DNA from: Halichondria panicea
Taxonomy: Eukaryota; Porifera; Demospongiae; Suberitida; Halichondriidae
DNA: 64,000 nucleotides
NCBI RefSeq assembly: GCF_963675165.1
Contig: NC_087387.1
Location: forward strand, 75,001 to 139,000
Reading direction: 5' to 3'
In this document: positions 1,725 through 64,000 of the stretch, one piece after another
Numbering within the stretch: position 1 is the stretch's first letter
Layout of the letters: each line of letters starts with the position of its first letter
The notes under the pieces: model-generated
Databases searched by the model: none
Seen by the model: only the letters and a program-made list of their open reading frames with translations
What the model was told of the DNA's origin: nothing
Made by a program: the position numbers and the translations under genes

Positions 1725-1945
1725 CTCTATGTATTGAAGACTGCATGTAAAGTGCTACCATGTGGCTGTAAATAGTGGTCTCAGTAATTAGCCGCACCTT
1801 GGGCAAATTAATTTTGTTGACAGGCAAAGGACACTCACTGTGTGTTTAGTTCTAATTAATGCCTCTTACCCACGTGGACTAGACTTGGCTTCTCAGCTAG
1901 CTCTCATATTCTGTGTCCTGTCTATCAGGTAGTGTAGCTAGAATA

Positions 1946-5107: not shown

Positions 5108-5182
<75 letters not shown>

Positions 5183-8100
5183 ACATAAGCATAGGCACAC
5201 ACACACACCACATAAGCATAGGCACACACACACACCACATAAGCATAGGCACACACACACACACCATAAGTATAGGCACACACACACACACCACATAAGC
5301 ATAGGCACACACACACCACATAAGCATAGGCACACACACACACCACATAAGCATAGGCACACACACACACCACATAAGCATAGGCACACACACACACCAC
5401 ATAAGCATAGGCACACACACACACCACATAAGCATAGGCATACACACACACACCACACAGGCTATAAACTGCACACATAATGATATGAACACACATAGTG
5501 ACTCTATTAGTCTAAGCTGTACACATATTTCACCTCGATATCAATGGCTGCAAACTGCCACCTCCAGGCTGTGTTGTAGAGGAAGGGTCGGAGGTCAAAC
5601 CGATTGTCATCAGGACTATAAGACTCAGCGTGATAGGACGGAGTGAGTGTCGTGAGCTTGTGTCTGTTGAGTGAGTAGCAGCGGAAGAAGAACTTGACCT
5701 TGTCAGCAATCTGTGCATGAAGCCAAATACAGTTAACAACAGCTAATTAACATTAATATTTTAGAGAAAGTTAATTATATAATATCTGTTCATATTGAAA
5801 GGTCTCTTTCTTGACATTGGATCAATATTACTGAAGTTATGTAAGGCTGTTGAAAGATAGTCAACTACCCCCCGTTAATCAATGGTTCAGGGACTCCAAT
5901 ATCATGATTTTCTGAAAGCTTAGAAAAAGACCATTCAAAAATGGTGTCATCAAAATTAATATTCGAAAGATAAAAGTATTTGCCAATTTGGCGATACCAT
6001 GGATAATAAATAGCCCATGGTCCAAGGCCGAAAAATGAATGGTAAATTATGGTCCCGACAAAAGTTTGGATTGAAACACATCATTTGAAAGGTCTCTTTC
6101 TAAGCTTTCAGAAAATCAGAAAATTGTTGACATTGGATGAACGGTACTCAAGTTAATGGCTGTTGAAAGATGTTCCCCCTCCCCAATTTAATCAATGGTT
6201 CGGGGACTCTTTCAGCTGCTATAACTTGAATTCCGTGGGTCCAATGTCAACAATTTTATGATTTTCTGAAAGCTTAGAAAAAGACCTTTCAAATGGTGTC
6301 ATCAAACTTTGTATTTGAGAGATAAAAGTATTTGTCAATTTGGCGATACCATGGATATAGCCCATGGTCCGAGGCCGAAAATTGTCAAATTTAGGCTCCG
6401 AAGAAGTTTTGGATTGAAACACATCATTTGAAAGGTCTCTTTCTAAGCTTTCAGAAAATTAGAATATTTTTGACATTGGATGAACGGTACTCAAGTTAAT
6501 GGCTGTTGAATGGTAGAGGTGGAAGGGCTGACCTGTTTGGGAGTCTTGTCCCTCCACATGTGCAGTAGTTTAGTGAACATGCTCAGAGGACCACACAAGT
6601 AGACCTTCCTCAGTCTACCAAACACTGAGAGCTCAGCGTACGTCATGCCCATATCAACCTATGTGTGGGCAAGTGGGACACTGTTACTGTTTAGTTACTG
6701 TACATACGATACACAGTACACAGCATGTGTATGTACTATGACCTCTACCTCATCTGTCTGCACATAGTCGCCAGTAATGGGCTCCAGTTCTGCTGTTGGC
6801 TTGGCCTTGAGAACACTGTGAGACAAAACAAGAGCTATTCATCAGCACAACAGGGAATCCCAAAACAGCTAAATCCAATGTACAACAATTATCAAATAGT
6901 CTCACTTGAGCAGCTCGGAATAGATAGGTGCCATGTACTTGCAGAATGAGCGCAAGTCAGTCTTTGAGATCCCACCAATAGGATTGATGTCAGCACTGGA
7001 GCAGTCATACTTGGTGAAGTAGCCTCTCAAAGCTTCGTCCACGTTGGCAGACCCCAACACCAGCAACCCACCGCTACGCCCTGCAGGACAATGGATACAG
7101 ACCACTCTCCCCAGCCTCAGACACCCTCACACAATGGACATGTAGTATAACATGTTTGTTTCTAGTGAGAGGGCCTGTAGTGATTCTGACAAGCCCACTC
7201 ACTAGGCCAGAAACAAACATTTTTTTATTTTTATTCTCCCCAGCCTCAGACACCCTCACCTTGTGTCCAGGGGGAGAGTTGTGCCATTAAGTAGGAGAGG
7301 ACCATTCTACACCTAGCCTGGACATTCTGTAGAGCAAGGTTCTCAGTACTGCTACCACCATGAACCTTGAACTTTGGCATCCTACCACTCACCTGTAAAG
7401 AGAAAGAAAGATATGGCCATAGCATTGTATCAAGCATTGGCAACAAACTCACTTGTGAGAAGATTGCCAAGTTAGCATCTACTGCAGTGTCTATATCAAT
7501 GTAGAGGTGATGGGAGCCAATCTGACCAGCCAGAGCCTCTGCTCTCTGTCTAGTCTCAAGGGAAGAGTTGGCAGACCCCATATAGCACGTGGTGAATAGC
7601 CGCCTGTGAATAGGGGATCATGTGATCATGTGCAGAGCTATATAGCACGTTGTGAATAGCCGCCTGTGTAGAGAGGATAGGGGATCATGTGCAGAGCTAA
7701 CCTACCTGGCTAATTCATGAGATGTGTTGGGTAGTGTACTATTAGGGGACAGCTTAAGCACACGACGTAGCTCCTCCATCACACACTGATTGCCCTTGCT
7801 GCACGTGTGTGTGTGTGGGGGTGGTGGGTGTGTGTGGGGGTGGTGGATGTGTGTGGGGGGGTGTACATGTGAGGCTGTTAACACACACACAGGCTTACTT
7901 GACGGCCTGACTCAGCAGGTTACACATGGAGCCCACCAGAGTGGCAGTGGAGGAACTGTCTATACCTCCACTGAGGGGCAGGAAGTATCCAGCCATACCA
8001 CTGCGTCTCAGGTAGTCCCACAGCCAGCAAGCAGGGCCCAGACTACGGGAGGAAATGTGTGTTTGGTTGTCCAACTAATTGATGCATTCAATAGCTCTCA

Positions 8101-11400: not shown

Positions 11401-12219
11401 ATGAAGCTGGTGATATTGACAGTTCTGCTGCTGCTGTGTGTGCAAAGCCTAAAGGCACATGATGTGAGCCAGCAAGTGGACCAGCTGAATGAGAGACTAA
11501 GAGAAGCTACTGCTAACCTAGAGGCTATGTTGAACCAAGTGGAAGAGCAAGGATGGGACAAGCTGCTCAGGAGAGCTCTAGCCAGCACCCAGGAGGATAG
11601 ATCCCTAGACAGTGAACTGGCTCAAATAGAAAGGCTACTCTTCGGAGAAGTGAAAGAAGACGCAGCTACTGAACAGCAAGAACAAGACGAGATCTCAGAG
11701 ATAGAGGATCTGCTACGACAGGACGCTAACACTCAAGGATGGGGTAGTAGCATCTCACACGCCTTTCATAAGGTGACCAACACTGTCAAGAAGGTTGCCA
11801 AGAAGATTTGTGAGACAACTGCTCTCGACCAAGAAGTTGCTGCAGCAGACACATTATTGGATGCTCGTGAGCAATTGCAGACACAGGCAACCATTCAAGA
11901 CGTTAAAATGACGAATGAAAATCTGGACCTGGGTGAAGATGAACTGGCTGAAATAGCGTCCTTCCTTGATCAAACTGAAGAGGTACAAGTGGAGGACAGT
12001 GGCCCTGCAGTGGAGGACAGTGGCCCTGCAGTGGAGAGGCTCCAGGCACTCATGGATCTAGCCCAGCAAGCAAAGGCCGATACAAAGCAAGCCAAGACTG
12101 ATGAAAGAGGGAGAGAGCGTGCAGGTGCTGAGGAGCTATCTGACAAGAAGGTCAATGCATTCATTTATCAGCTCATGGCTAAGAGGCTGATGAAGATACT
12201 TCAAGACAAAGATGTCTAG
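11401..12219 (+). CDS. Secreted precursor with acidic regions and a cationic helix; related in plan to the 54-62 kb cluster
   Basis: An intronless gene for 272 residues. Residues 1-19 are a signal peptide (MKLVILTVLLLLCVQSLKA). The mature part is strongly acidic and helical, rich in Glu and Gln. A single cationic stretch at about 118-140, QGWGSSISHAFHKV then VKKVAKKIC, is preceded by an acidic block ending ISEIEDLLRQDANT. A short tandem duplication, VEDSGPA, lies near residue 200. The QGW-plus-lysine-helix motif recalls QGWLKKI in the gene at 60129, suggesting a shared origin or convergent design. A TTAAAAA stretch lies about 30 bp before the ATG. I do not recognise the protein. Reading it as an antimicrobial-like precursor is inference. 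Confidence 0.75.
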   Translation: MKLVILTVLLLLCVQSLKAHDVSQQVDQLNERLREATANLEAMLNQVEEQGWDKLLRRALASTQEDRSLDSELAQIERLLFGEVKEDAATEQQEQDEISEIEDLLRQDANTQGWGSSISHAFHKVTNTVKKVAKKICETTALDQEVAAADTLLDAREQLQTQATIQDVKMTNENLDLGEDELAEIASFLDQTEEVQVEDSGPAVEDSGPAVERLQALMDLAQQAKADTKQAKTDERGRERAGAEELSDKKVNAFIYQLMAKRLMKILQDKDV

Positions 12220-23200: not shown

Positions 23201-25898
23201 AAATCATTTGATTTAAGTATGTCATTGCTGCAATAATCTGTGACATAGTAATAATAATAATAATTATGTGTTTGGTTGCTATAGGTGCCATTGGGAAAGA
23301 GGCGGAGGAACCAAAGAAGAAGAAGAAGAAGAAAGAGAGAGCCACGGATTCTTCTGCGTCTGATACCAAGAAGAAAGAAAAGAAAAATCGCAAAGGAAAA
23401 GAAAAGAAAGAGCAGACAGAGCAGGAGAAACGCCAACAAGAACAAAAGGATTTGGAACAAAAAGAGAAACTAAAGAAAGAACAAGAACTGAGGGAAATAG
23501 AGCGAAGGGAGCAAGAAAAGAGAGATCGTAAAGAACAAGAAAAGCAGGAACTAGAGCGGAGAGAGCAAGAAAAGAGAGGTCGCAAAGAACAAGAGAAGCA
23601 GGAATTGGTGCGAAGGGAGCAAGAAAAGAAAGATCGTAAAGAACAAGAGAAGGCACTGAAAGTCAGGAAAGAACAAGAGAAGAAGGAACGTCGTGAGCAA
23701 GAGAAACGTGAGAAACAAGAGGTAAAGGTTCGGGAGAAAGAGCTTAAGGCGCAAGCCAAGAAAGGTATGTCGTCATGGTAATGGCTGCTAGGTTACTAGC
23801 GTTGTGTGTATGTGTGTACAGAGAAGAAGATAACATCTGTTGAGGTAAAGGCTCCTCTTGTGTCAACCACACTCCCCGGGGCGCCCCCCACAGAGCCCCA
23901 CAGATCACCCCCCACCTCACAAGTAAGCGACCCGACCACCTTCTCCATCACTCCTCGTGAGGACCAGAAGCCAACGCAACGCAAGTTCGCCCCACCCCCT
24001 CCAGTCAACACAGGGCCAAAGGAGGTAGCAAACAAGGTAACAATGTTTGACACTGAGAGCGAGAGCGAGAGCGAGGATGAGAAGGTCAAAGTTCAGAAGC
24101 CCCCCAAGACCACAGGAGGTGAATGATTACGTGTGTGTATAATCATTATGTTATGTTCTGCAGGATTTGACATGGTACCAAAACCAGTCCATCCACCACC
24201 CCCGCAGAAGTAAGTACTAGTTCCACACACACCCACTCACACTCCACCCACCCACACACGTCCACTCCACACACATAGTGAGGTCCACTACATAGAATCC
24301 GATGACCAGAGCTTGGATATATTTGGAGTAGACGGACTGGCAGAATTGAACGATGCTCTCAGAGAACTGTCAAACATTCAATCGTACACAGGTTATTAGA
24401 ACAACTGTGGTTATTGTTTTGTATTAATTAACTAGCACTTTTAACTTTCTGTGTAGCATTATTTAAATTCATGTAAGATACTCCAGTTGGTCCCCACCTT
24501 TCTTCATCGTTGCCTGCCTCTACTCTCTCCTGCAGAGCCAACACCAGTGCCCGCTAAGAAGGTGTCCGTAGCAGTTACCGTAGCAACCAAGCAGCGAGAG
24601 AGTACGAGGAGCACGTTGGAGAAAGGTGTGGGATTCAAGAAAACATCGAGTGGTACGTGTGTGTGTGTGCATGTGGGTGGTGTGGGTGGTGTGACTGTGT
24701 GGGTGTGTGCATATTTACATAGTTGGGTACAATGTTAGTAAAGTTTGTACTAATACTTGTGGAATGTCAGGTGGTTCTGGTAGCTCTGGAAGTGGGCGTG
24801 GTCAGCTCCCTAATGAGAGGCGTGGCAATCCCCCCACTGGGGGGCGTGTGTCAGGGGGTATGACAGTAGTAGGGACTGGAACCAACGCTAACCTCACGTC
24901 CACCAATATCCAAGGTAACCTGTCAGTGTATGCTAGCTCTCATCTCATTGGTCGCTGTAGTAGAGGGTGGCTACTCGTCAAACTTTGAGGAGAATGTGCT
25001 GAACATTTTGAAGGGATTGACGGACACTATGCAACAGATGAGATCCAACCCGTCAGTCACCCAGTCAGAGGTACAAAGGTCAAGTTTGTGTGGGTAAACT
25101 TTGACCCCACACCCTCCCCCTATAGATCAAGCAACAGGAGATCCTTCAACAACAGATGATTCAAAACCTGATCTCCTACAGTGAGAATAATCCTCAACTG
25201 ACCAGCAAGCTACTGCTCATGTTGAAACAAGAGCAGAAACCAACAGACTACGTGCAGGTACACACACAACCTCCCCCCCCCCAGCGAGTACAATCATGTG
25301 ATACCCCCCCCACACACACACACACACAGAGTGATGCTACTAAGAGTGCTTTTGAGATGTTGGAGCAGAAGTTGCTGGAGGCTCAGGAGGTGCAGTCAAG
25401 GCATGCCAAGGATTATATACGCACACAAGAAGAGTTCCAACAAGCCATGTACCTGAAGTTAGAGGAGCAGGCACAGCAACAGCTCAAGGTAAGGGACGCC
25501 CACCACACACACACATACACGCCCACACCATGCACACACACAACACTACAGCTGATTCAAAGCAACTTTGAGAAGTATTCGCACTTGTTGAATGAGAGGA
25601 CACCAAAAAAGAAGAAGAAGAGCAAGAGCAAGAGCAAGAGCAAGAATAAGCACAAGAGACAGAGTAGTTACTCTGATGATGGCACCTCCAGTGAGTCAGA
25701 CGATGGTCTGGTGCAGCCAATGAAGCAAACCTCAGTCTCAAAACCAGCTGTAAGCCAACACACACGCACACGCACACGCACACCACGCACACACACACAC
25801 ACACACACGCACACACACGCACACGCACACCACGCACGCACACACACACGCACACACACACACACACACACACGCGCACACACACACACACACACACA

Positions 25899-25929
<31 letters not shown>

Positions 25930-25938
25930 CCACACACA

Positions 25939-25995
<57 letters not shown>

Positions 25996-25996
25996 A

Positions 25997-26069
<73 letters not shown>

Positions 26070-26264
26070 ACGCAGTATAGTTATGTATAGCTAGAATGTA
26101 ATTATAATTATTGACTAACATATTACTACAGGTGAGGACAATGCAAGCAAGGATCTATCATCAGGACATGCTGGATGAAGAGTCTATGAGAACCTCATCT
26201 TCCTCATCCCTCACTGGCAAGCTAAGAGGTGTGGTCACCATTACCCCTCCCCCCCTGTGTGTGT

Positions 26265-43006: not shown

Positions 43007-48365
<5,359 letters not shown>

Positions 48366-53059: not shown

Positions 53060-53339
53060 ACACAGTGCGTCATGTTTTTATCATCCAAACTGTTTAATTA
53101 ATTATCTTTACTTTCTTAATTATTTATTGTGGCCCGTCAGTTTGTGCACTGGCTTTACTGTTGATGTTTGCTACATTATTTATTGCATGCATTTGGTTGG
53201 TTGGTTTCTGCAATTGCGATACTAATACTGTAACTGTAAAACTAGAGCTAATCATTTCATTAACCTATTATATATTTAAAGCCAATCTTTGTGGAGACAT
53301 TACTTCATTGCTGGCTACAGTGTTGAAGCTTGTGCTTAT

Positions 53340-53424
53340 AGAGTATTAGTGTCTGTGTGTATGTGTGTAGCCTGTGAGGGTAGCACCTTGTGTGTGTATG
53401 TGTGTAGCCTGTGAGAGTAGCACC

Positions 53425-53483
<59 letters not shown>

Positions 53484-53860
53484 TGTGTGTGTAGCCTGTG
53501 AGGGTAGCACCTTGTGTGTGCATGTGTGTAGCCTGTGAGAGTAGCACCTTGTGGTGTGTGTGTGTGTGTGTGTAGCCTGTGAGGGTAGCACCTTGTGTGT
53601 GTGTGTGTGTGTGTGTAGCCTGTGAGGGTAGCACCTTGTGTGTGCATGTGTGTAGCCTGTGAGGGTAGCACCTTGTGTGTGTGTGTGTGTGTGTGTAGCC
53701 TGTGAGGGTAGCACCTTGTGTGTGTGTGTGTAGCCTGTGAGGGTAGCACCTTGCGTGTGCATGTGTGTAGACTGTGAGGGTAGCACCTTGTGTGCATGTG
53801 TGTAGCCTGTGAGGGTAGCACCTTGTGTGTGTAGCCTGTGAGGGTAGCACCTTGCGTGTG
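53340..53860. repeat. (TG)n plus 'TAGCCTGTGAGGGTAGCACCTTG' array downstream of MTRR
   Basis: About 12 copies of a unit with GCCTGTGAGGGTAGCACCTT and variable TG runs, in the 3' flank of MTRR. It looks like the MARS1-type repeat, but no exon is adjacent here. The Thr/His-rich ORFs on the minus strand are artefacts. Confidence 0.9.
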
Positions 53861-54065
53861 GTGGCATACCCCTAAATCACTGTAGTGAGCATTGAAAGGC
53901 TAACTTCCATCCATTTACAGAAATGTAGTGTGTACTGTGTCCAGTTCCTTCCACTATTATAGAATCTCTTGAAGCTGGCTAGTCAACATGTGGGTCTTTA
54001 ATCCTAGCTCTTAATGCATGGGACAAGTGTGTTTCTTTCATTTGTCAGTATCTCAGACTCTAGCC

Positions 54066-54590
54066 ATGAAGTTGTTGGTAGCTCTAGTCCTCCTGGTAGT
54101 TGCATGCAGCCTAACAACGGCCTACCAAGTCGACCGTAGTTCACTCAAGCATCTACTCGAGAGGCTGCTTACTAAACAGCTGCTCACTAAACAGCTGCTA
54201 CGTGCGAGAAATGAGCAAGAAGACACTGGCTTCACACCCATCACTACCTTCCCTCCCTTTACCTTCCCTCCATTTGATCATGGTACGACGTTTAACCCCC
54301 CTACACCCGCTAGTACGACGTTTAACCCCCCTACCACTGATAGTACGACTTTTAACCCCCCTACCACTGATAGTACGACTTTTAACCCCCCTACCACTGC
54401 TACCTCGACTACCAGTCCACCTCCAACCAGTCCACCTCCAAAACGAAAGACGTGCTTCAAGCATCTCATCATAAAGTTCCTGTTAAAGAAGATTATGAAG
54501 AAAACTATTAAGCCACGGCGATGCTTCCTCTGTCGTATTCTGAAACGCTTCCCCCGCCCCCACAGGTTCTCCCGTGTCCCCAAATGGTGA
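54066..54590 (+). CDS. Secreted precursor with TTFNPPT repeats and a strongly cationic Cys-containing C-terminus
   Basis: An intronless gene for 174 residues. Signal peptide at 1-19 (MKLLVALVLLVVACSLTTA). A short basic/leucine helix with a duplicated LLTKQ follows. Residues about 60-120 are Pro/Thr/Ser-rich, with four copies of TTFNPPT, a likely O-glycosylated spacer. The last 50 residues are extremely basic: KRKTCFKHLIIKFLLKKIM, KKTIKPRRCFLCRILKR and FPRPHRFSRVPKW, with three cysteines. I do not recognise the family. The plan (signal, spacer, cationic amphipathic end) fits a host-defence peptide precursor, which is inference. The ATG at 54066 is preferred over 54018 because it starts the signal peptide. 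A TATAGAA element lies about 108 bp upstream. Confidence 0.72.
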   Translation: MKLLVALVLLVVACSLTTAYQVDRSSLKHLLERLLTKQLLTKQLLRARNEQEDTGFTPITTFPPFTFPPFDHGTTFNPPTPASTTFNPPTTDSTTFNPPTTDSTTFNPPTTATSTTSPPPTSPPPKRKTCFKHLIIKFLLKKIMKKTIKPRRCFLCRILKRFPRPHRFSRVPKW

Positions 54591-54639
54591 TGGATCGATG
54601 GTTGGGGCACAAGAACATTGAACGTAGTATATCCGTAGT

Positions 54640-54790
54640 GGCTATAATGACATAGACTAGTGTATTGTGTGTTCATAGTGACTATAATGGCATAGACTAG
54701 TGTATTGTGTGTTCATGATGACTAGACATAGACTAGTGTATTGTGTATTCATGATGACTAGACATAGACTAGTATTGTGTGTTCATGATG
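54640..54790. repeat. ~40-bp tandem repeat, 4 copies, downstream of the cationic precursor gene
   Basis: Copies contain CATAGACTAGTGTATTGTGT and a GTTCAT end. Located in the 3' flank; no coding role. Confidence 0.8.
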
Positions 54791-54884
54791 TTTTGTAGCT
54801 CGATCGTTATGAATTTGTGGCACAAGAATGAAAGTAATAACAATAATAGCTATTGTATAAATGCTAGCATGCCGATAGTCTCAG

Positions 54885-55268
54885 CTAGCCTAGTAGTCCA
54901 CCAACCAGCTTGTCCACCATGTTGAGGATCTCAGCTTGCATCACGACGTCATCACTGCTACTGCTGTCCTCGTCATCGTCATCGTCATCGTCACGGCGAC
55001 GGCCTTTGCGACCCCTTCGTTTCTTTGAGTGTTTATGATTCTTTTGTATATCAGCTTGCACGATGGCCTCTTCATTATTGAGTAGTAGATCATCCATTGT
55101 CTGAATGTTTGTTACCATCTCCTCTTGATTGACTAGCTGTTGAAGTCTTGTTAGAATATCAGTAATAGCTTCTTCTTCTTCAGTAGCTATCTCGTTGTCT
55201 AGTGAAGCGGCCAGTGTAGCTGTGGCCAGTATAGCACTAGCGGCTACTAGGAGCAGTAGTATCTTCAT
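54885..55268 (-). CDS. Secreted GGLLG-tail precursor with a basic block and a polyaspartate run
   Basis: An intronless gene for 127 residues. Signal peptide MKILLLLVAASAILATATLA, then an acidic, Leu-rich pro-region (EEEEAITDILTRLQQLV). Near residue 80 a very basic stretch KNHKHSKKRRGRKGRRR is followed at once by seven Asp and an acidic Ser run. The C-terminus ILNMVDKLVGGLLG shares its last residues with the next two minus-strand genes. The basic block offers many dibasic cleavage sites, and the terminal Gly could serve as an amide donor. Function unknown. TATAAAA lies 48 bp upstream of the ATG, which is chosen because it opens the signal peptide. Confidence 0.75.
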   Translation of the reverse strand: MKILLLLVAASAILATATLAASLDNEIATEEEEAITDILTRLQQLVNQEEMVTNIQTMDDLLLNNEEAIVQADIQKNHKHSKKRRGRKGRRRDDDDDDDEDSSSSDDVVMQAEILNMVDKLVGGLLG

Positions 55269-55876
55269 GTTGATGGGGTGTACTGTATAGAGACAAGTGT
55301 GTGCAGTGCTCTGTGTTTTATAGAGTTTGGTAGGGAAGAGGGTATTGTGTGGGACAATGGAGCTGTGGTCCAACATGTCACCATGAGCTGAATCAAGAGA
55401 GCGGATATTGAGGGCTTTCAATGAGGAATTGAAACACAACAGCTGTTGACACTGTAATTACACATGTTGATATTGTTTATTATTGCTATTCTGTGTTACA
55501 TTCGAATATTCATTCATTCATTCAGTGCATGATTGTTTTACAACACTTAAGCTAGTAATTATAATTATGGATTACGATGCATTATTGGCCCTGAGGCTCA
55601 TCTGTTGCTATAGCCCCTGCAATGCTCAGCTCTCTCCACACATATGTACACAATGCCACTAGTCCATATAATTATACAATGCTTTATAGCCATCTTGCAT
55701 GTTTCCAAAACCCACTGTGTATAATGTGTTTTACTCGTTGTATTAATTTGAATTATTTTGCCAAAACTTTATTTCAATCACCACAGGTACATACATGCGT
55801 GTTAGCATCACACAATTAATGGACTAAGTCTAACAAGTCATTTGTTCTAGCTACACTTGATATAATGATAGTCCTC
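55269..55876. other. Intergenic region between two secreted-precursor genes
   Basis: AT-rich. Apart from the TATA box at 55316 and an ATTCATTCATTCATTCA run near 55507, I see no feature. Confidence 0.5.
55316..55322 (-). promoter_or_regulatory. TATA box of the 54885-55268 gene
   Basis: TATAAAA on the minus strand, 48 bp before the start codon, a position consistent with a short 5' UTR. Confidence 0.55.
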
Positions 55877-56182
55877 TCATCCCATTAGTCCTCCTAGCAG
55901 GTTGGTGAGCATGCCCTGCTTGTCGACGTAATCTTGTAGGTCCGCTAGCTCCTCGTTGTCAAGGAGACCGTACTCCTCAGCTCCAGCTAGAGCATCCAAT
56001 AGCGTGTCACTATCAACATCAGCTTCTTGTCTCTCTGCCAACTCTAGAATACTGTTGAGGAGATTGGAATACTGTGAGCGTCTGTTGCGGAGATGTGCAG
56101 CTGCTTGGGTGTCTCCAGCTGGTGCAGCGACGGCCATTGATGCAATGGTGGCAAAGACGGCTAGTAGGATGAAGGTGTTCAT
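55877..56182 (-). CDS. Secreted GGLMG-tail precursor, 101 residues
   Basis: Intronless. Signal peptide MNTFILLAVFATIASMAVA, then APAGDTQAAAHLRNRRSQYS with an RNRR cleavage-type site. An acidic helical part follows (ADVDSDTLLDALAGAEEYGL, NEELADLQDYVDK), and the end is QGMLTNLLGGLMG. The tail matches the neighbours ending LVGGLLG and NMLGGLLG, each with Asp-Lys a short distance before. If cleaved after RNRR or DK, a short hydrophobic peptide would be released. That is inference. A weak TACATAAG element lies about 80 bp upstream. Confidence 0.75.
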   Translation of the reverse strand: MNTFILLAVFATIASMAVAAPAGDTQAAAHLRNRRSQYSNLLNSILELAERQEADVDSDTLLDALAGAEEYGLLDNEELADLQDYVDKQGMLTNLLGGLMG

Positions 56183-56429
56183 ATTGTTGAGAGCTGTATT
56201 AATAGCGTTGTTGATAATGTGGATTGTTGATAAATGTGGATGATAATGCTTCAGGGCTTGGGCTTATGTAGGGAGGGGGGCAGGATGCGTTGCTCTGCAG
56301 TAAGGACGGGGGAACAATGGCACAATGGATGGTTTCAATGTTGGGGAAAAAACAGTATATATATAGAACAGTGCATTCAATAGTCTGTGTGTTCACTCAA
56401 CAGTGTGTACAATGTCATGCATCATTGAT

Positions 56430-57550
56430 CTAATTGAAAGTTAAAAATTTACTGAAGACCTTTCAATGATGTGTTTCAATCTAAACACTGAACGGGGCCA
56501 TAATTTGTCGCTTTTCAGCCTTGGACCATGGGGTTTATATTATCCATGGTATCGCCAAATTGGCAAATACTTTTATCTCTCAAATACGAAGTTTGATGAC
56601 ACTATTTGAAAGGTCTTTTTCTAAGCTTTCAGAAAATCATAAAATTGTTGACATTGGATCCACAGAATTCAAGTAAAGCAGCTGAAAGAGTTCCCAAACC
56701 ATTGGGAGGGGGGGGGGGGGTAGTCGAACATCTTTCAACAGCCATTAACTTGAGTATCGTTGATCCAATGTCAAACATTTTGTGATTTTCTGAAAGGTTA
56801 GAAAGATACCTTTCAAATGATGTGTTTCAATTCAAAATTTCTTTGGAGCCTAAATTTGACATTTTTCGGCCTTGGACCATGGGCTATAATCCATGGTATC
56901 GGCAAATTGGCAAATACTTTTATCTCTCAAATACGAAGTTTGATGACACCATTTGAAAGGTCTTTTTCTAAACTTTCAGAAAATCATAAAAATTAATGTT
57001 TAACATTGGATCCACAGAATTCAAGTTATAGCAGCTGAAAGAGTCCCCGAACCGTTGATTAAATTGTGGAGGGGGAACATCTTTCAACAGCCATTAACTT
57101 GAGTACCATTCATCTAATGTCAAAAATTTTATGATTTTTTGAAAGCTTAGAAAGAGACCTTTCAAATGATGTGTTTCAATCCAAAATTTCTTCGGAGCCT
57201 AAATTTGACATTTTTCGGCCTTGGACCATGGGCTATATATATAATCCATGGTATCGGCAAATTAGGCAAATACTTTTTGTTACTTTTTGTTACTTTTTTA
57301 CAAAGTTTGATGACACTATTTGAAAGGTCTTTTTCTAAGCTTTCAGAAAATCATAATATTTTTTGACATTGGATTCCACAGAATTCAAGTTATAGCAGCT
57401 GAAAGAGTCCCCCCCCCGAACCATTGATTAAATTGGGGAGGGGGGGGGGTAGTTGAACATCTTTTAACAGCCATTAACTTAAGCACCGTTCATCCAATGT
57501 CAAACTTTTTATGATTTTCTGAAAGCTTAAAAAGAGACCTTTCAACCCAA
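56430..57550. repeat. About three copies of the foldback repeat, reverse orientation, intergenic
   Basis: Copies show GGACCATGGG..TATAATCCATGGTATCG centres and AAGCTTTCAGAAAATCAT arms, opposite in orientation to the array at 18905-21560. They fill most of the gap between two secreted-precursor genes. Confidence 0.88.
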
Positions 57551-57682
57551 CTTTCCATGCCTACTAGTTGCTAGATAATACCACCATTAGAATAATGTTC
57601 TCATTCACAATAACTCATTGATTATAGCATAACATTATAACTATAGCTAGCTAACTGCAACAGTTCAATACAGTGCATGCTT

Positions 57683-58501
57683 CTATCCTAGTAGTCCTCC
57701 AAGCATATTCATCAAATTACTGCTGTGTGCCTTGTCGCCCTCGGCAGCCACCCCTTCGTAATCCTCGGCATCTACTTCGTCAAGGAGATCGTAATCTTCC
57801 ATGGCAACGTCGTCAAAGAGACTGTAATCTTCCATTGCAACGTTGTCACGGTAATCCTCTTCATTGGCAAGCTCGTTGATAGACTGCAACTTTGTCAGCA
57901 TATCTAACAGCTGTTGTGGTTTTGATTTGACAGCGCCCTTGAGGACATTAACAAGGTTTAGAGCTTTTCTCTTCGTACTTGTTAGTGGTGTTGGTCCTGC
58001 CCTGGCTCCATTATTGATAATCTCAGCTGCTAGTTTCTGTTTGGCTTTTTCCTTCAACTCTTCCTTAATTTCTTTCTGCATCTCTTTCTGGAGTACCTTT
58101 TTAACTGTTGGTGCTGAAGGTGATTTGGGACCACTGAGTGGTGATGCTGGTGCCTTGGCCAAAGGGTTGACTGTTTCGAGCATGTCAAAGAGACCCTGAG
58201 CCTGGATTATATCGACTGCGTCTTGTGTCGCCACCTCATCGCTACGGAGCATGTCTGCCAGAGCTGAGAGTGTTTGCACATCTGCACCAGAGCCACGACT
58301 GCAAGCTCTTTGTAAAGCAGCCAGCAGCTCTTCTTTAGCCGAGACATCATCATATTCTTGCTGCTGCACGATCTCTGATAGCAACTGCTCGTTTAGGAGT
58401 GATTCTAGCTCCTCCAGGGTAGCCATTGCTTGGGCATTCCTAACAGAGAAGACTGACGAGATGGTGAGGGCTAGCACACAGAGAATGATGATTGACTTCA
58501 T
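57683..58501 (-). CDS. Secreted GGLLG-tail precursor, 272 residues, with a lysine-rich helix and acidic repeats
   Basis: Intronless. The signal peptide starts at the second ATG (MKSIIILCVLALTISSVFS). An acidic Leu-rich pro-region (EELESLLNEQLLSEI) is followed by a Pro/Ser spacer and then a long lysine/glutamate helix (KKVLQKEMQKEIKEELKEKA). Near the end is a degenerate tandem acidic repeat: VAMEDYSLFDD, VAMEDYDLLDE, VDAEDYEG. The C-terminus is AHSSNLMNMLGGLLG. It is the largest of the three genes sharing this tail. No known family is recognised. A TATAAAG element lies 53-59 bp upstream. Confidence 0.75.
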   Translation of the reverse strand: MKSIIILCVLALTISSVFSVRNAQAMATLEELESLLNEQLLSEIVQQQEYDDVSAKEELLAALQRACSRGSGADVQTLSALADMLRSDEVATQDAVDIIQAQGLFDMLETVNPLAKAPASPLSGPKSPSAPTVKKVLQKEMQKEIKEELKEKAKQKLAAEIINNGARAGPTPLTSTKRKALNLVNVLKGAVKSKPQQLLDMLTKLQSINELANEEDYRDNVAMEDYSLFDDVAMEDYDLLDEVDAEDYEGVAAEGDKAHSSNLMNMLGGLLG

Positions 58502-59038
58502 GTTGCTGTCTGTCACACTGTGAAATAGTTTGTGGGATATTGTGTGGAGGCATCTTTATATCAGTCCTATAGGGGATGTGTGTGTCCTATATATTTATAC
58601 TGTACATTTTCATTGTGGAAAGAAGTCATTTGTTGGATAAGTGATCCTATTCAGTCTATTGTGTTTTAGTTTGCAGCCACTGGATTACAAACAGGATTAA
58701 AATTCACATAATATTGAGTAGTCTCTCATTCTTCTATAATTATATGTTGTTCAGTATTATAATTATATCATGTGTGAATAAACTAAAACTTAACTGAATA
58801 CCCTCAAAAAGGAACTAACACCTTTTAGACTACACACTGCAATGTACGTGTATAACGTGTAACATTCACTTCTCACTTGTAATTATCAAAACACTACTTC
58901 ATTGTTTATCTTTTCATTTTTGCTATCAACATGTATAGCAATTAATGCCTCTGTACAAACAAGGGTACTACTCTAAGATAACCTTTCAATCTATATCTCA
59001 CAGCATGCATGATAACTATAGCTAGGTATTAAAGTCCT
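58502..59038. other. Intergenic region between secreted-precursor genes
   Basis: AT-rich. Contains the TATA box at 58554; otherwise no gene or repeat is visible. Confidence 0.5.
58554..58560 (-). promoter_or_regulatory. TATA box of the 57683-58501 gene
   Basis: TATAAAG on the minus strand, 53 bp before the chosen start codon. Confidence 0.5.
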
Positions 59039-59827
59039 CTAAATATTGAGCATTAGTTCTTTCACTCTCTGCATGATCCGCTCTGTGATAAGGTTGCCAA
59101 GCTCTTTCATTTCTCTGCTTGTTTGGTATCCATTCCCTCGAACCATTTGGTTACTTTGCAGCTGAGCTTTATTCATTTGTCTCTGTAGCTCCTGAAAACC
59201 CGTCCTGTTGTGGGACTTGAAATCCATGTTCAGCTTCAGTTGCACGTCATTCTCTTTCTTATCTTTATCACTTCCACCCTTGCCGTTGACTGAGTGGGTG
59301 GGTGGGTGAACGTGTAGCACTGGGCTCCTGGAGAGAGGCTGTCCTGAGGGTATTGAAGGTGGTGGCTTGATCGCCACTCTCTGATTGGGCGAACTGGGAT
59401 GTATGTGTAGGTGGGGGGTACCAGGAGTCAGCGGCTGTCTTTGTGGAGGGTATAAATGAATTCCTGGAATCTCTGGCACTGGTTGAACTGGTTGAACAGG
59501 TTTGATCGGGTGGATGTGGACACTCGGTAGTGCTGGAGGGGGTGCTGGTCTTGCTAATACAGGGAGTTTGTAATAGTCTTGAGGCTGTTGCGCTGGCCTG
59601 AGATGCAGCTTTAATCCAATGCCTGGAGTGGGGGCTGGGGAGATGGCAGGTCTGCTCTCCATCTTATTGAGAAGGTTCTTGGCAGCTCGTTGTATGACGT
59701 TGCTCAGCCGCTGGTCAGCCATCGCCTTAGCACGATCAGAGAGCACGCCCTGGTAGCGTAGAGGCAGGCTGTACACAGTGGTGCTAGCTAAGGCACACAA
59801 TAGCAGTATAGCAGCTGTCGCCTTCAT
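59039..59827 (-). CDS. Secreted proline/histidine-rich protein with HxHP motifs
   Basis: Intronless, 262 residues. Signal peptide MKATAAILLLCALASTTVYS. A short helical basic part follows (RLSNVIQRAAKNLLNKM). Residues about 60-180 are proline-rich, with a repeated xHxHP-type motif: LKLHLRP, SVHIHPIKP, IHLYPP, LHIHPSSP, VLHVHPP. The C-terminal third is charged and helical (ELQRQMNKAQLQSNQ, ITERIMQRVKELMLNI). Alternating His with Pro could bind metal ions or form an extended rod, but this is inference. No family recognised. It lies in the middle of the precursor cluster. Confidence 0.72.
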   Translation of the reverse strand: MKATAAILLLCALASTTVYSLPLRYQGVLSDRAKAMADQRLSNVIQRAAKNLLNKMESRPAISPAPTPGIGLKLHLRPAQQPQDYYKLPVLARPAPPPALPSVHIHPIKPVQPVQPVPEIPGIHLYPPQRQPLTPGTPHLHIHPSSPNQRVAIKPPPSIPSGQPLSRSPVLHVHPPTHSVNGKGGSDKDKKENDVQLKLNMDFKSHNRTGFQELQRQMNKAQLQSNQMVRGNGYQTSREMKELGNLITERIMQRVKELMLNI

Positions 59828-60128
59828 GCTTCACATAAGATGTCTGTTTGGTTAGATAGGTGTACAGTGGCTTGTGAGTAAACTGGCATTGGATGAAATG
59901 GTTCTAATTATATTAAAGGATTTCAGCATGGAAATGCTGAGTTAGTGTGTGTACATTGGAACAATTGAGCAGCACAATAGCTCAATTTACTGAGCAAAAG
60001 ACCAATAGGAAGTATTCCATGATTACTAGAAAAATGTTGTCATCATTCTATGCATACAATTATAGTCTAATTCTAATTCAAGTTCTTGTTCATTCTAACT
60101 TAGTCTATATTAGTCTGTTAATTCTCTT
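59828..60128. other. Intergenic region
   Basis: AT-rich flanks of two precursor genes. No feature seen. Confidence 0.5.
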
Positions 60129-60866
60129 TTACTCCTCCAGGAGTTGGAGAAAAGCTGCCTCATTGAGTGTGTCCGAATCATCCTCGATCATCATAGCCTC
60201 AGCTACAGCATCCTCCAGCTGCTCAGACAAGTCCTGCACCTGCACACACTTGCTTTGAGGGGCACATGTGTCTCCATTCTTCATTCTTTTATAGCCTTTG
60301 TAGACTTTTTTGCCGAAATCGATTCCCCTTCTGATCAAATTCTTGAACCAGCTGGTGGTAGCTTGTGTCTGTTGACTTGCAAAGAATTTTTGCAGCTCAG
60401 CGGACAGTTCGTCGCCACCATCTTCCTCGTCTGTCTGAGCAACCTTGGCTTGCATCGACTGTAGCATTGACTTCTTCTCATGAGTCATAAAAACTTCAAT
60501 GGCTGCCTCCTCCAGCGCCTCTGGCATGTCCTCAACCTCGGCACAGCCTTTCCCCTTCTGATACAAGTTGTACACTTTCTTGCCCACTTTGACGGCCTTT
60601 TTTACAAATTTTTTAGCTTTTTTGAAAATCTTCTTAAGCCAGCCTTGCAACTCAGCATTGTTGTATTGTTTGACTGCAAAAACGTCTTGAGTCTGATCAC
60701 GAGTGTCTTCTTCTTCTTCACTCTGAATAGCACTGTCCAACAGTAATGCTTGCTCCAAAGCATTCTCAACAATGGCGTTGATGTCCATCTTCTTGGATAC
60801 CGTTGGAGAGCTGTAAGCAATAGCCACCAACACAGCACAAACTGCAACAGTAAGAAGAGTCTTCAT
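60129..60866 (-). CDS. Secreted precursor with two cationic amphipathic segments (cecropin-like start)
   Basis: Intronless, 245 residues. Signal peptide MKTLLTVAVCAVLVAIAYS. The pro-region is acidic (QSEEEEDTRDQ). Two related modules follow. Module 1 has QGWLKKIFKKAKKFVKKAVK, VGKKVYNLYQKGKG, then C and VEDMPEALEEAAIEVFM. Module 2 has TSWFKNLIRRGIDFGKKVYK, GYKRMKNGDTC, then C and VQDLSEQLEDAVAEAMM. So the gene contains an internal duplication of cationic helix, Cys and acidic helix. Gly-Trp-Leu-Lys-Lys-Ile also opens several cecropin-class antimicrobial peptides; descent from them is not implied. Acidic parts may neutralise the cationic ones before cleavage. TATAAAA lies 78 bp upstream. Confidence 0.8.
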   Translation of the reverse strand: MKTLLTVAVCAVLVAIAYSSPTVSKKMDINAIVENALEQALLLDSAIQSEEEEDTRDQTQDVFAVKQYNNAELQGWLKKIFKKAKKFVKKAVKVGKKVYNLYQKGKGCAEVEDMPEALEEAAIEVFMTHEKKSMLQSMQAKVAQTDEEDGGDELSAELQKFFASQQTQATTSWFKNLIRRGIDFGKKVYKGYKRMKNGDTCAPQSKCVQVQDLSEQLEDAVAEAMMIEDDSDTLNEAAFLQLLEE

Positions 60867-60943
60867 TGCGATTTTATTTGACAGTCAAAGCTGGGAAAAG
60901 TTGACAGTCGAAGCAACTGGTGGAAAGTCTCAGCGTTGGGCAT

Positions 60944-60950
60944 TTTTATA
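60944..60950 (-). promoter_or_regulatory. TATA box of the 60129-60866 gene
   Basis: TATAAAA on the minus strand, 78 bp before the ATG. Confidence 0.5.
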
Positions 60951-61054
60951 CAGCTGCGTAAGTTGCTATGGTGTCAGATTTATTTGCTGCTTAAATAAAC
61001 GTAATTATTAGTATGAATGTCAGCTATGTGTTTTCTACAGGAGTCTCAGTTTAC

Positions 61055-61440
61055 TTTCATTTTGTGAAGTGTTACATTTGCTAGTGCATGTTTTTATTGC
61101 AACGATTACATGATGCACGAATCTTCACTACATTTGAAAAGGTATCTCTTGAATCAAGAGTGAAACCACACAGCTCAGTGTGTCAACTATCACCTCTCGC
61201 TATATTTGTTGGGGAATTTTTATGCATGGTGTCAAATTTATTGTTTATTTTTCATTTTTGCTGTTGATTGATTATCAGCTATGTTTAAGTGTTGTAAATT
61301 ACATCTGCTATAGTGCATGTTTTTGTTACAACATGATGTATGAATCTTCACTACCTTGTTGAAAGGTATCCCATGAATCGATAGTGAAACCACACATGTA
61401 GCTGAGTATGTGTTCAACCGCCACCTCTCTCTATCATCAT
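61055..61440. repeat. Diverged tandem duplication (~150 bp per copy) in an intergenic region
   Basis: Two copies share GTGCATGTTTTT, GAATCTTCACTAC, GTGAAACCACACA and CCACCTCTC in the same order (about 61060-61205 and 61290-61437). Neither codes for anything obvious. This fills the gap between the genes at 60129 and 61745. Confidence 0.75.
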
Positions 61441-61744
61441 GCACTCCATGAGACTATGCAACTCTCTCTAGCAACTGTAATTCCATGCTGGCAATGGCTG
61501 ATTAGGTGCTGTACACCATTGCCACAGGGCACAGTCAACACATGTGGGAAATCAACCCAGTAGATCTGACCAACACATCACCCACTACATGCCATTGTGA
61601 CACATGCACACATGTGTACTTCCTCCCCCACTACTTGTTTCCTCTATAACTCTCTGCAGGGCTGTACCCTACCACTGTAGACTGGCTTCTCTGAAGCACT
61701 AGTAAAGAAGGCAACAGAGAGAAGGAAGAGCTCCTCCATGCAAG

Positions 61745-62137
61745 ATGTGGCTAACTCTAAGGATAGCATGGCTGTCTGTACTTTTAACTTTATGTGTGTT
61801 ACAAGCACAGTCAGAGAGAATAAGAAAGATAACTGTTGACAAGTTGGTGGAGAATAAGCAAGAACTAGCTGAGATTGAAAGTGCATTGGAAGACATTGGC
61901 CAATCATTCCGAGACTTTGGAACAAAAGTTAAGAACTTTTTCACTCCTAAATCAGATCGTCCAACGCCAAGACCAATGGATCATATTCCAGCAGTGTTTC
62001 AAGAGCAGCAAGAGCCGGGGTTGTTGTTAGAGGAGGCAGTTGTCAAGGCTGCATTGGATAGTGTAGTGCAGGAACAGTCAGAAGATGTAGCTAACTATAG
62101 CTGGTTCAGGAGACTCTTAGCAAAAGCTCTGCAATAA
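61745..62137 (+). CDS. Secreted precursor, 130 residues, with a short cationic C-terminus
   Basis: Intronless. Signal peptide MWLTLRIAWLSVLLTLCVLQ with AQS cleavage. An acidic helix follows (ELAEIESALEDIGQSF), running into a basic stretch DFGTKVKNFFTPKSDRPTPR. After a second acidic part the end is NYSWFRRLLAKALQ. SWF plus basic residues resembles the second module (TSWFKNLIRRG) of the gene at 60129. Function unknown; membership of the cluster is inferred from plan and position. AATAAAG, a likely polyadenylation signal, lies about 75 bp after the stop. Confidence 0.7.
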   Translation: MWLTLRIAWLSVLLTLCVLQAQSERIRKITVDKLVENKQELAEIESALEDIGQSFRDFGTKVKNFFTPKSDRPTPRPMDHIPAVFQEQQEPGLLLEEAVVKAALDSVVQEQSEDVANYSWFRRLLAKALQ

Positions 62138-62853: not shown

Positions 62854-64000
62854 TCACTTTTTTTCCAGTAATTCTCTGCTCAGTAGTGCCTCGATGATGG
62901 AAGTTTGGTTGAGCCTGAAGGGTGGGGGGTCAGGAGGGGATGGCTGAGGACCTGGTTGGGCCATATGAGCTACTTTTCTGCTCAGTAATGCCTCGATGAT
63001 GGCAGTTTGGTTGAGCGTGAAGGGTGGGGGGTCAGGAGGGGATGGCTGAGGACCTGGTTGGGCCATATGAGCTACTTCTCTGCTCAGTAATGCCTCGATG
63101 ATGGCAGTTTGGTTGAGCGTGAAGGGTGGGGGGTCAGGAGGGGATGGCTGAGGACCTGGTTGGGCCATATGAGCTACTTCTCTGCTCAGTAATGCCTCGA
63201 TGATGGCAGTTCGGTTGAGCGTGAAGGGTGGGGGGTCAGGAGGGGATGGCTGAGGACCTGGTTGGGCCATATGAGCTATTTCTCTGCTCAGTAATGCCTC
63301 GATGATAGCAGTTCGGTTGAGCCTGAAGGGTGGGGGGTCAGGAGGGGATGGCTGAGGACCTGGTTGGGCCATATGAGCTACTTCTCTGCTCAGTAATGCC
63401 TCGATGATGGCAGTTCGGTTGAGCGTGAAGGGTGGGGGGTCAGGAGGGGATGGCTGAGGACCTGGTTGGGCCATATGAGCTACTTCTCTGCTCAGTAATG
63501 CCTCGATGATGGCAGTTCGGTTGAGCGTGAAGGGTGGGGGGTCAGGAGGGGATGGCTGAGGACCTGGTTGGGCCATATGAGCTACTTCTCTGCTCAGTAA
63601 TGCCTCGATGATGGCAGTTCGGTTGAGCGTGAAGGGTGGGGGGTCAGGAGGGGATGGCTGAGGACCTGGTTGGGCCATATGAGCTATTTCTCTGCTCAGT
63701 AATGCCTCGATGATGGCAGTTCGGTTGAGCGTGAAGGGTGGGGGGTCAGGAGGGGATGGCTGAGGACCTGGTTGGGCCATATGAGCTATTTCTCTGCTCA
63801 GTAATGCCTCGATGATGGCAGTTCGGTTGAGCGTGAAGGGTGGGGGGTCAGGAGGGGATGGCTGAGGACCTGGTTGGGCCATATGAGCTATTTCTCTGCT
63901 CAGTAATGCCTCGATGATGGCAGTTTGGTTGAGCGTGAAGGGTGGGGGGTCAGGAGGGGATGGCTGAGGACCTGGTTGGGCCATATGAGCTACTTCTCTG
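62854..64000 (-). CDS. Tandem-repeat protein of 34-residue units (partial, open at the window edge)
   Basis: The frame is open from the window edge to the stop at 62854 and holds about 11 copies of a 102-bp unit. Each unit reads HMAQPGPQPSPPDPPP, then F-T/R-LNRTAIIEALLSRE. Copies are nearly identical at the DNA level; changes are few, and the reading frame is kept in all copies. Each unit pairs a proline-rich spacer with a short amphipathic helix, and most contain an Asn-Arg-Thr or Asn-Gln-Thr N-glycosylation sequon. The last unit ends LSRELLEKK. The 5' end, and any signal peptide or upstream exon, lies beyond base 64000. No family recognised; a structural or surface protein is possible. Confidence 0.6.
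   Translation of the reverse strand, partial: REVAHMAQPGPQPSPPDPPPFTLNQTAIIEALLSREIAHMAQPGPQPSPPDPPPFTLNRTAIIEALLSREIAHMAQPGPQPSPPDPPPFTLNRTAIIEALLSREIAHMAQPGPQPSPPDPPPFTLNRTAIIEALLSREVAHMAQPGPQPSPPDPPPFTLNRTAIIEALLSREVAHMAQPGPQPSPPDPPPFTLNRTAIIEALLSREVAHMAQPGPQPSPPDPPPFRLNRTAIIEALLSREIAHMAQPGPQPSPPDPPPFTLNRTAIIEALLSREVAHMAQPGPQPSPPDPPPFTLNQTAIIEALLSREVAHMAQPGPQPSPPDPPPFTLNQTAIIEALLSRKVAHMAQPGPQPSPPDPPPFRLNQTSIIEALLSRELLEKK

Follow-up and report, generated by a model that had tools for sequence, protein, structure and literature searches.

What does an 8-kb stretch of a demosponge genome, very probably that of Halichondria panicea, encode when its short open reading frames (ORFs) all begin like secreted proteins? 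The stretch, at 54066 to 62137 of the window (the whole 64-kb piece of DNA that was analyzed), holds seven ORFs, P1 to P7, all uninterrupted, of 101 to 272 aa, each with a predicted signal peptide; "intronless" refers here to the coding sequence only, as read from the DNA. Judged from sequence, it is probably a locus of small secreted-peptide precursors in which P6, together with its relative P8 elsewhere in the window, would encode precursors of antimicrobial-type cationic amphipathic helical peptides. The predicted features of the other cluster members are best explained if these are secreted proteins of separate kinds. The features are as follows.

54066 to 54590, plus strand: P1, 174 aa; signal peptide, basic segment, repeats of 10 aa rich in Thr and Pro (TTFNPPTTDS type), strongly basic C terminus with Cys
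54885 to 55268, minus strand: P2, 127 aa; signal peptide, acidic part, KKRRGRKGRRR block, Asp/Ser-rich acidic block, C-terminal KLVGGLLG
55315 to 55322, minus strand: TATA element of P2, TATAAAAC, position -54
55877 to 56182, minus strand: P3, 101 aa; signal peptide, putative furin-type site RNRR, conserved acidic part, C-terminal LLGGLMG
56078 to 56089, minus strand: putative furin-type site RNRR of P3; RN[KR]R in 9/9 aligned rows
57683 to 58501, minus strand: P4, 272 aa; signal peptide, alternating acidic and basic segments, acidic EDY-rich part, C-terminal MLGGLLG
58553 to 58560, minus strand: TATA element of P4, TATAAAGA, position -59
59039 to 59827, minus strand: P5, 262 aa; signal peptide, long Pro-rich part containing the motifs HIHP and HVHP, basic C terminus
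60129 to 60866, minus strand: P6, 245 aa; precursor with two cationic units set between three acidic parts, in the amphipathic peptide family
60546 to 60644, minus strand: cationic unit 1 of P6, residues 75 to 107, 33 aa, net +13, amphipathic
60273 to 60353, minus strand: cationic unit 2 of P6, residues 172 to 198, 27 aa, net +8, amphipathic
60943 to 60950, minus strand: TATA element of P6, TATAAAAA, position -84
61745 to 62137, plus strand: P7, 130 aa; signal peptide, amphipathic RDFGTKVKNFF segment, acidic part, C-terminal NYSWFRRLLAKALQ
11401 to 12219, plus strand: P8 (outside the cluster), 272 aa; one cationic unit between acidic parts, distant P6-family member
11737 to 11808, plus strand: cationic unit of P8, residues 113 to 136, 24 aa, net +5, amphipathic

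Signal peptides were called with our own script, which requires a hydrophobic core and small residues at -3 and -1 (it is not SignalP). All seven cluster ORFs passed, in agreement, at the level of prediction, with the clear signal peptides claimed in an earlier note on this DNA. ORFs of at least 100 aa that passed the rule were counted, excluding those in which one residue exceeded 25%; seven lay between 54.0 and 62.2 kb and three in the remainder of the window. An order-3 Markov simulation (n = 100) of the 8.3-kb region gave 0.04 such ORFs on average and never more than 1; a count of seven in 8 kb thus far exceeds what chance would give. The seven intronless genes of the earlier note were thereby recovered, as was their low-complexity acidic, cationic, or proline-rich composition. 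The abrupt change of gene type that it described is only partly borne out: the boundary is not absolute, since P8, one of the three ORFs outside the cluster, is a distant member of the P6 family and is flanked by other genes at 11.4 kb. Over the 10 kb that adjoin the window on its right, no candidate ORF of at least 100 aa passed the same filter.

P6 belongs to a large family in this genome. With P6 as the query, 29 matches were found at E ≤ 10; with one member on contig C6 as the query, 34 were found at E ≤ 0.01, and P6 was recovered at 4.9e-5. The family's 34 places, merged by hand, lie on contigs C4, C5, C6, and C11 (29 of the 34 on C6) and include tandem arrays. Multi-unit polyproteins are represented by one with five units and one with eight, and 23 single-unit relatives of P6 were aligned (alignment A1). 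When signal peptides were stripped, hhalign matched P6 and its two relatives to A1 at 97.4% (E = 1.2e-11) and P8 at 94.2%, while all remaining pairs were below 15, with P1, P2, P3, P4, P5, and P7 at 11.4% or less. A single family of all seven ORFs is not supported by this result, which joins only P6 and, from outside the cluster, P8. With the A1 profile P8 scored 20.4 bits, and the highest-scoring of its 50 shuffles -2.4; the corresponding values were 7.7 and 6.0 for P1, 29.0 and 24.1 for P3, 20.6 and 16.1 for P4, and 4.4 and 4.0 for P7, and P2 and P5 did not exceed the best of their 50 shuffles. The resemblance to defense-peptide clusters noted earlier applies to P6, with its acidic and cationic amphipathic parts; for the other six, hhalign gave no reliable membership in the amphipathic family.

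The charge architecture of P6 is maintained among its relatives. P6 is an internal duplication whose halves match at E = 3.7e-9, and the halves of its relative P0060 match at 2.3e-27. Successive segments carry net charges of -8, +13, -11, +8, and -12 in P6; -12, +12, -10, +9, and -11 in P0059; and -16, +13, -17, +11, and -8 in P0060, so that the alternation is kept despite sequence change. Between P6 and P0059, 49 of 61 residues are identical in the acidic spacer and 22 of 33 and 18 of 29 in the cationic units; since the spacer is conserved at least as well as the units, it may serve a separate function. In 23/23 single-unit relatives the pro-part is acidic (net -8 to -25) and the mature part cationic (+4 to +23), the acidic prepro-part being conserved and the cationic end more variable. 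P6 and P8 both start with a signal peptide by our rule. P6 relatives occur in other sequence records, P0059 and P0060 among them.

For amphipathicity, 15 segments picked by eye were each compared with shuffles of their own letters, and 11 were more amphipathic at P < 0.02. The best 18-residue moment was 0.79 for P6 unit 1 (shuffle P = 0.0005), 0.79 for unit 2 (P = 0.0015), and 0.65 for the P8 unit (P = 0.0005). The four segments that did not exceed their shuffles were the P1 C terminus (0.49), two P4 segments (0.32 and 0.21), and the P7 C terminus (0.15). An AlphaFold2 model of P6 made both units helical, at very low confidence (pLDDT 34.6).

Substitution rates were estimated by the Nei-Gojobori method in six paralogue groups of the P6 family. 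In five of the six, dN in the mature part exceeded that in the pro-part; pro-part dN/dS was 0.14 to 0.39, and mature dN/dS was at most 0.92, never above 1, so that positive selection is not shown by this method. In the largest group dS was also higher in the mature part (0.323 versus 0.150), so the contrast between the parts may partly reflect alignment error or gene conversion.

A TATA[AT]A or TATATA element lies at -110 to -40 in three of the seven ORFs (P2, P4, and P6). The background rate is 4.7% among 359 ATGs of the cluster region and 7.3% among 1,958 in the rest of the window. The earlier note had placed such elements at 48 to 80 bp in several members; those of P2 (-54) and P4 (-59) fall in that range, P6's (-84) is just outside it, and the other four (P1, P3, P5, and P7) have none in the 150 bases examined upstream. 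P4 has further elements at -98 and -92. Among relatives of the P6 family, 22 of 25 carry a TATA element. P7 has an AATAAA at base 72 past its stop codon.

A C-terminal Gly(Lys/Arg)0-3 end is present in 22 of the 23 single-unit relatives; P6, P8, and the two multi-unit precursors have no C-terminal Gly, and neither P0059 nor P0060 keeps the Gly that follows P6 unit 1. Gln-Trp/Phe occurs at 39 of 43 detected acidic-to-cationic junctions (many rows being close relatives), compared with 30% at random positions in those proteins and 11.6% at junctions in shuffled proteins. In P6 and P0059, what was counted as the second-unit junction is probably an LQKFF lying upstream, rather than the point where that unit itself begins. 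The genome contains an exon like that of PAM at C7:569857, for which all 13 PDB hits were PAM.

These features suggest how P6-type precursors could work. P6 would be read from its nearby TATA promoter into a short unspliced mRNA (no TATA element was seen for P8), and the signal peptide would direct the precursor to secretory granules, where, during storage, the acidic segments may neutralize the cationic ones. The cationic peptides would be freed by proteolysis at the acidic-to-cationic junction, which is non-dibasic with its recurrent Gln before Trp/Phe. Single-unit relatives would further have their C-terminal Gly(Lys/Arg)n trimmed and amidated. The released peptides would bind and disturb bacterial membranes, consistent with a role in defense.

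What, then, are the other ORFs? Relatives in other sequence records were found for P1, P2, P3, P6, and P7, the five that the search covered. For P1, P2, P3, and P7 the query was a single alignment in which unrelated proteins were mixed (A3), and scoring was limited to the 7,990 candidates that shared most words; negatives from that search mean little for these two reasons. P1 has a near-identical database form (P0061, 180 aa) and P2 a relative with 80% identity across 89% (P0068); P7 has P0063 and P0066. P0059 and P0066, relatives of P6 and P7, each lie on an NCBI contig of 5,489 bases, which only suggests that they are neighbors. Within the genome, the best other place had an E value of 0.08 for P1, 0.59 for P4, and 0.025 for P5, and P2 had none at E ≤ 5.

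P3 is best explained as a furin-type propeptide with its own relatives in other records. Its RNRR is presumably a furin-type site, given the consensus R-X-[KR]-R, and the nine-row alignment, in which three rows are nearly the same sequence, has 33 invariant columns. Six of the nine rows end in Gly, P0064, P0071, and P0074 being the exceptions. The AlphaFold2 model of P3 was of low confidence (pLDDT 51.6). P2, P3, and P4 share a GGL[LM]G C terminus, which is suggestive at most of kinship. A degenerate L-GGL-x-G-stop pattern occurred 7 times in the genome and its reversed control 9 times; only two of the seven occurrences, both in the window, end a signal-peptide ORF, and P2, with Val at the first place, is missed by it.

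Ten proteins were scanned against Pfam (P1 to P8, the five-unit precursor, and P0056), and none of the ten reached a cut-off, so the earlier note's statement that the seven have no recognized family survived an HMM search. The only hits of P1 were extensin (E = 0.029) and a glue family (E = 0.052), both far below cut-off. The five-unit precursor fell just short of the cut-off with DUF5783 (31.6 versus 32 bits) and ApoC-I (25.2 versus 28.3); these were taken as composition effects, as were the hits of the nine-member set A4 (10 families, best E = 0.0014) and of A1 (23 members, 25 of 44 families listed, the best of those being GET2, in 6 members, and DUF4142, in 1, both near 2.5e-6). No antimicrobial peptide was listed in PDB sequence searches with P6 unit 1 (6 hits) or A4 (3 hits), and the best PDB match, a designed repeat protein at 2.1e-8, owes its score to eight repeats of about 3 bits each. 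Scans of genome contigs with A4 and of viral contigs with A2 found no relatives.

Could the locus instead serve mainly in signaling, with peptide-signal propeptides in an animal that lacks neurons, P3 as the clearest case, and the GGL[LM]G ends as amidation signals? We consider this unlikely. The retention of RN[KR]R and the invariant columns in all P3 rows, the C-terminal Gly of three of the seven ORFs (P2 to P4), and the PAM-like exon argue for it, but the Gly end is missing from a third of the P3 rows, the conserved part of P3 is acidic and about 60 aa long, different from short amidated neuropeptides, and membrane activity fits units of the P6 type better. Structural or matrix proteins, for silica deposition, mucus, or adhesive coacervates, with charge patterning that serves condensation, are less probable still. 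The Thr-Pro repeats of P1, its sole Pfam hits (to the extensin and glue families), and the Pro/His patterning of P5 are in keeping with such proteins, and glassin of glass sponges has His/Asp, Pro, and His/Thr domains as described in PMC10772126. P5, however, has no His/Asp-rich block, silicatein is the silicifier proposed for demosponges in the same source, and amphipathic units more variable than the prepro-part are not what a matrix protein needs.

Low complexity and the lack of any family at cut-off would also be expected of chance or nonfunctional ORFs or of exons that belong to larger spliced genes. With seven ORFs where simulation gave 0.04 on average, relatives of P1, P2, P3, P6, and P7 in other records, and constrained pro-parts in all six P6-family groups, this explanation is scarcely credible, and the conserved relatives speak strongly against it for P3 and P6.

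A bolder proposal, which we regard as doubtful though worth stating, is a secreted-peptide system of sponges' own, comprising some 34 charge-patterned precursors with 1, 2, 5, or 8 units, non-dibasic cleavage at Gln-Trp/Phe, PAM amidation of single-unit members, and a furin-processed P3 family conserved between sponges. PAM is reported for Porifera, yet a survey of Ephydatia fluviatilis detected no peptide that was amidated (PMC9525235). If the proposal were true, there would be natural PAM substrates in a phylum where that one-species mass spectrometry survey saw none, and the Gly(Lys/Arg)n ends make PAM's role in sponges a testable question. ASABF is counted among the few well-characterized sponge antimicrobial peptides, to which cyclic peptides and depsipeptides are added (PMC12466427), and is the sponge example in a second review (PMC10608444). 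Passages from three papers on Halichondria, searched for antimicrobial effectors, did not deal with these genes. A large gene-encoded linear amphipathic family would give sponge-microbiome work direct host effectors to test.

Among known systems, styelins and cecropins are linear amphipathic helices whose N-terminal start with Gly-Trp is similar to that of the sponge family. Styelin (PF17562) touches the relative P0056 at E = 1, with 10.3 bits against a cut-off of 27, and was not listed for P6 or P8; Cecropin was not listed for any of the 10 scanned proteins (or among the 25 of 44 families given for A1). Suberites belongs to the order Suberitida, as does Halichondria. ASABF of Suberites domuncula is, like the predicted P6 product, a gene-encoded cationic secreted demosponge peptide, but it is an eight-Cys CS-alpha-beta peptide with the mature region directly after the signal peptide (PMC3210614), whereas P6 has acidic parts and, beyond its signal peptide, three Cys (two in P0059 and in P0060). 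Glassin and perisilin, silica proteins of glass sponges, are secreted with Pro- or His-rich segments (PMC10772126), as in P5; P5 differs in having no His/Asp block and no CAP-type domain listed by Pfam, and comes from another sponge class.

Our main reading likens P6 to the arminins of Hydra, which have a signal peptide, an acidic N-terminal and a basic C-terminal part, and a C-terminal Gly thought to be amidated (PMC12013895). The Gly end occurs in 22 of the 23 single-unit relatives but in neither P6 nor P8. Antimicrobial families of Hydra combine bipartite charge with tandem paralogue clusters, like the P6 family, and arminins reportedly occur in that genus only (PMC10945409). Unlike arminins, the sponge family also has 2-, 5-, and 8-unit precursors and the Gln-Trp/Phe junction. 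Arminin-like AMP1 to AMP4 of Trichoplax, another nerveless animal, compared here by description, likewise combine a signal peptide with an acidic part, a basic part, and a Gly at the C terminus, and are termed putative antimicrobial peptides (PMC12013895). P6 has the hallmarks of such bipartite-charge precursors: a signal peptide, an acidic pro-part with a cationic peptide, and amphipathicity beyond composition. By analogy, and with no kinship implied, P6 is best read as a candidate antimicrobial-type precursor that would work as arminins do.

The cluster is best read as a secreted-peptide locus that contains a host-defence-type precursor. The earlier note had proposed a group of intronless genes with signal peptides, and seven intronless open reading frames (ORFs P1 to P7, in order) with signal-peptide-like starts were indeed found at 54066-62137, where they account for 49% of the sequence as coding. 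In 100 order-3 Markov simulations, such ORFs averaged 0.04 per region, with a maximum of 1. No further such ORF of at least 100 aa was found in the 10 kb past the window (C11:75001-139000; assembly of 131 Mb in 39 contigs). The TATA-like elements ascribed to several members held for only three of the seven (P2 at -54, P4 at -59 and P6 at -84).

Judged by sequence, the genes around the cluster look like ordinary animal genes. Ten neighbouring ORFs were scanned: six had a clear Pfam match (filamin, DUF547, superoxide dismutase, ankyrin, tRNA synthetase and NAD-binding oxidoreductase), one fell slightly below the Pfam cut-off (GST) and three had no Pfam match. Between P3 and P4 (56465-57545) lies a unit of ~350 bp in three copies with inverted arms of 40-79 bp, which resembles a small mobile or satellite element. 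An open frame on the minus strand at 62854-63999, built from a 102-bp tandem repeat with the unit MAQPGPQPSPPDPPPFTLN(R/Q)TAIIEALLSRE(I/V)AH, leaves the window, and its 5′ end lies beyond it. Long simple repeats of the CA/TG type (e.g., 4945-5540, 25484-26154, 47133-48117 and 53336-53899) give rise to spurious long His-Thr and Cys-Val ORFs in the window.

The putative host-defence-type precursor is P6, which belongs to a family that includes the following members:

60129-60866 (-): P6, 245 aa, two cationic units
11401-12219 (+): P8, a distant relative outside the cluster, located between a DUF547-containing ORF and an exon of superoxide dismutase
C5:3.245 Mb (+), positions 811-2271 of fetched stretch L025: 5-unit polyprotein, 486 aa, similar cationic units with Asp-rich spacers
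C5:3.164 Mb (-), positions 1020-3173 of fetched stretch L050: 8-unit polyprotein, 717 aa, similar cationic units with Asp-rich spacers

The two halves of P6 are homologous (26% identity, E 3.7e-9), as are those of its database relative P0060 (44%, E 2.3e-27). A protein-database search at E 0.1 found just two relatives of P6, P0059 (67% identity) and P0060 (42%), and all three proteins share the charge order acidic-cationic-acidic-cationic-acidic. In P6 the amphipathicity of both cationic units exceeds that of shuffled versions of the same residues. An AlphaFold2 model of very low confidence places predicted helices at 70-105 and 169-196, over both units. The acidic spacer contains CAEVEDMPE, invariant across the three proteins; a spacer that merely masks charge would leave this invariance unexplained.

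When the genome was searched with P6, 29 matches reached E 10 or better. They include C11:2.35 Mb, two places on C5, and C6 at 3.89-3.91, 4.06-4.10 and 4.37-4.38 Mb; rows above E 0.01 were individually weak. With one C6 member as query, 34 matches reached E 0.01 or better, P6 being recovered at 4.9e-5. Merging both searches by hand yielded 34 distinct places including P6 (29 on C6, two each on C5 and C11, one on C4), a total that takes in the weak P6-query rows and omits P8 and an extra place, C6:3929142, found with P3 (E 0.0097). From fetched stretches, 26 family ORFs were read outside the window, and 23 single-unit members formed the alignment A1, which excludes the two multi-unit proteins and an ORF bearing a long N-terminal extension.

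All 23 A1 members run from a signal peptide through an acidic pro-part (-8 to -25) to a cationic end (+4 to +23), and 22 end in Gly followed by 0-3 Lys/Arg. The same ending occurs in 37 of the 50 relatives from the database, a set in which several sequences seem truncated. TATA elements at -110 to -40 precede 22 of 25 members (A1 plus the two multi-unit proteins), versus 7.3% of other ATGs. At the acidic-to-cationic junction, Gln immediately precedes Trp/Phe in 39 of 43 detected junctions, many from close relatives, versus 30% at random positions in the same proteins and 11.6% in shuffled proteins; for the second units of P6 and P0059 the match is probably the upstream LQKFF rather than the unit's own start. 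FQ directly precedes each unit of both C5 polyproteins. None of the 39 junctions had a dibasic pair within the six residues before the Gln.

Substitution rates were compared between the mature part and the pro-part. In the largest paralogue group (28 pairs), dN was 0.295 in the mature part versus 0.054 in the pro-part, and dN/dS was 0.92 versus 0.36; mature dN was the higher in five of six groups. Mature dN/dS exceeded 1 in none of the six, and dS was likewise raised in the mature part (0.323 versus 0.150, largest group). The mature part is thus more variable, and positive selection is not demonstrated.

P8 scored 20.4 bits against the A1 profile, where the highest-scoring of its 50 shuffles reached -2.4, and profile comparison with A1 gave 94.2%. 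Its amphipathic cationic unit follows a Gln. Upstream of this unit, at residues ~50-60, the sequence QGWDKLLRRAL combines a second Gln-Gly-Trp and a brief cationic run, possibly a second, shorter peptide. A genome search with P8 found no relatives elsewhere except one weak row.

Profile comparison with A1 confirmed none of the other six cluster members. Scores slightly exceeded the best shuffle for P3 (29.0 versus 24.1 bits), P4 (20.6 versus 16.1), P1 (7.7 versus 6.0) and P7 (4.4 versus 4.0), with no excess for P2 (7.2 versus 16.7) or P5 (0.1 versus 6.1). P2, P3 and P4 share the C-terminal end GGL[LM]G. P3 has relatives in other records, and all nine aligned rows carry RN[KR]R and an EEYGLLDNEE core; P0003, P0064 and P0065 are near-identical. 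No credible Pfam or PDB relative was found for this propeptide family (P0003 relatives P0069-P0074). Database relatives were P0068 for P2, P0063/P0066 for P7 and P0061 for P1; the best other genome place had E 0.59 for P4 and E 0.025 for P5.

The analysis shows the architecture, amphipathicity and make-up of the P6 family. We infer that the P6-type precursors, if expressed, would store cationic helices in charge-balanced form; proteolysis at the acidic-to-cationic junction would free the helices, which would then act on microbial membranes. The terminal Gly could be amidated: an exon on C7 matched only the peptide-amidating enzyme PAM (13 of 13 structure matches), so from sequence there is at least a possibility of amidation. 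Several clustered Cu2_monooxygen (PF01082) matches occur at C1:14.86-14.92 Mb and C12:0.18 Mb, and the copy examined on C1 is dopamine-beta-hydroxylase-like (1 structure match).

Among the titles and abstract openings listed from the open-licence literature, none gave an account of this peptide family, which is not proof of absence in print. The sponge peptide ASABF is described as an eight-Cys type (PMC3210614), unlike the P6 family. In Hydra, antimicrobial families are described that are bipartite in charge, young and clustered by tandem duplication (PMC10945409), and in Trichoplax arminin-like precursors with a terminal Gly (PMC12013895). On paper, the sponge family would work in the same way as these precursors, a likeness of description that need not mean homology.
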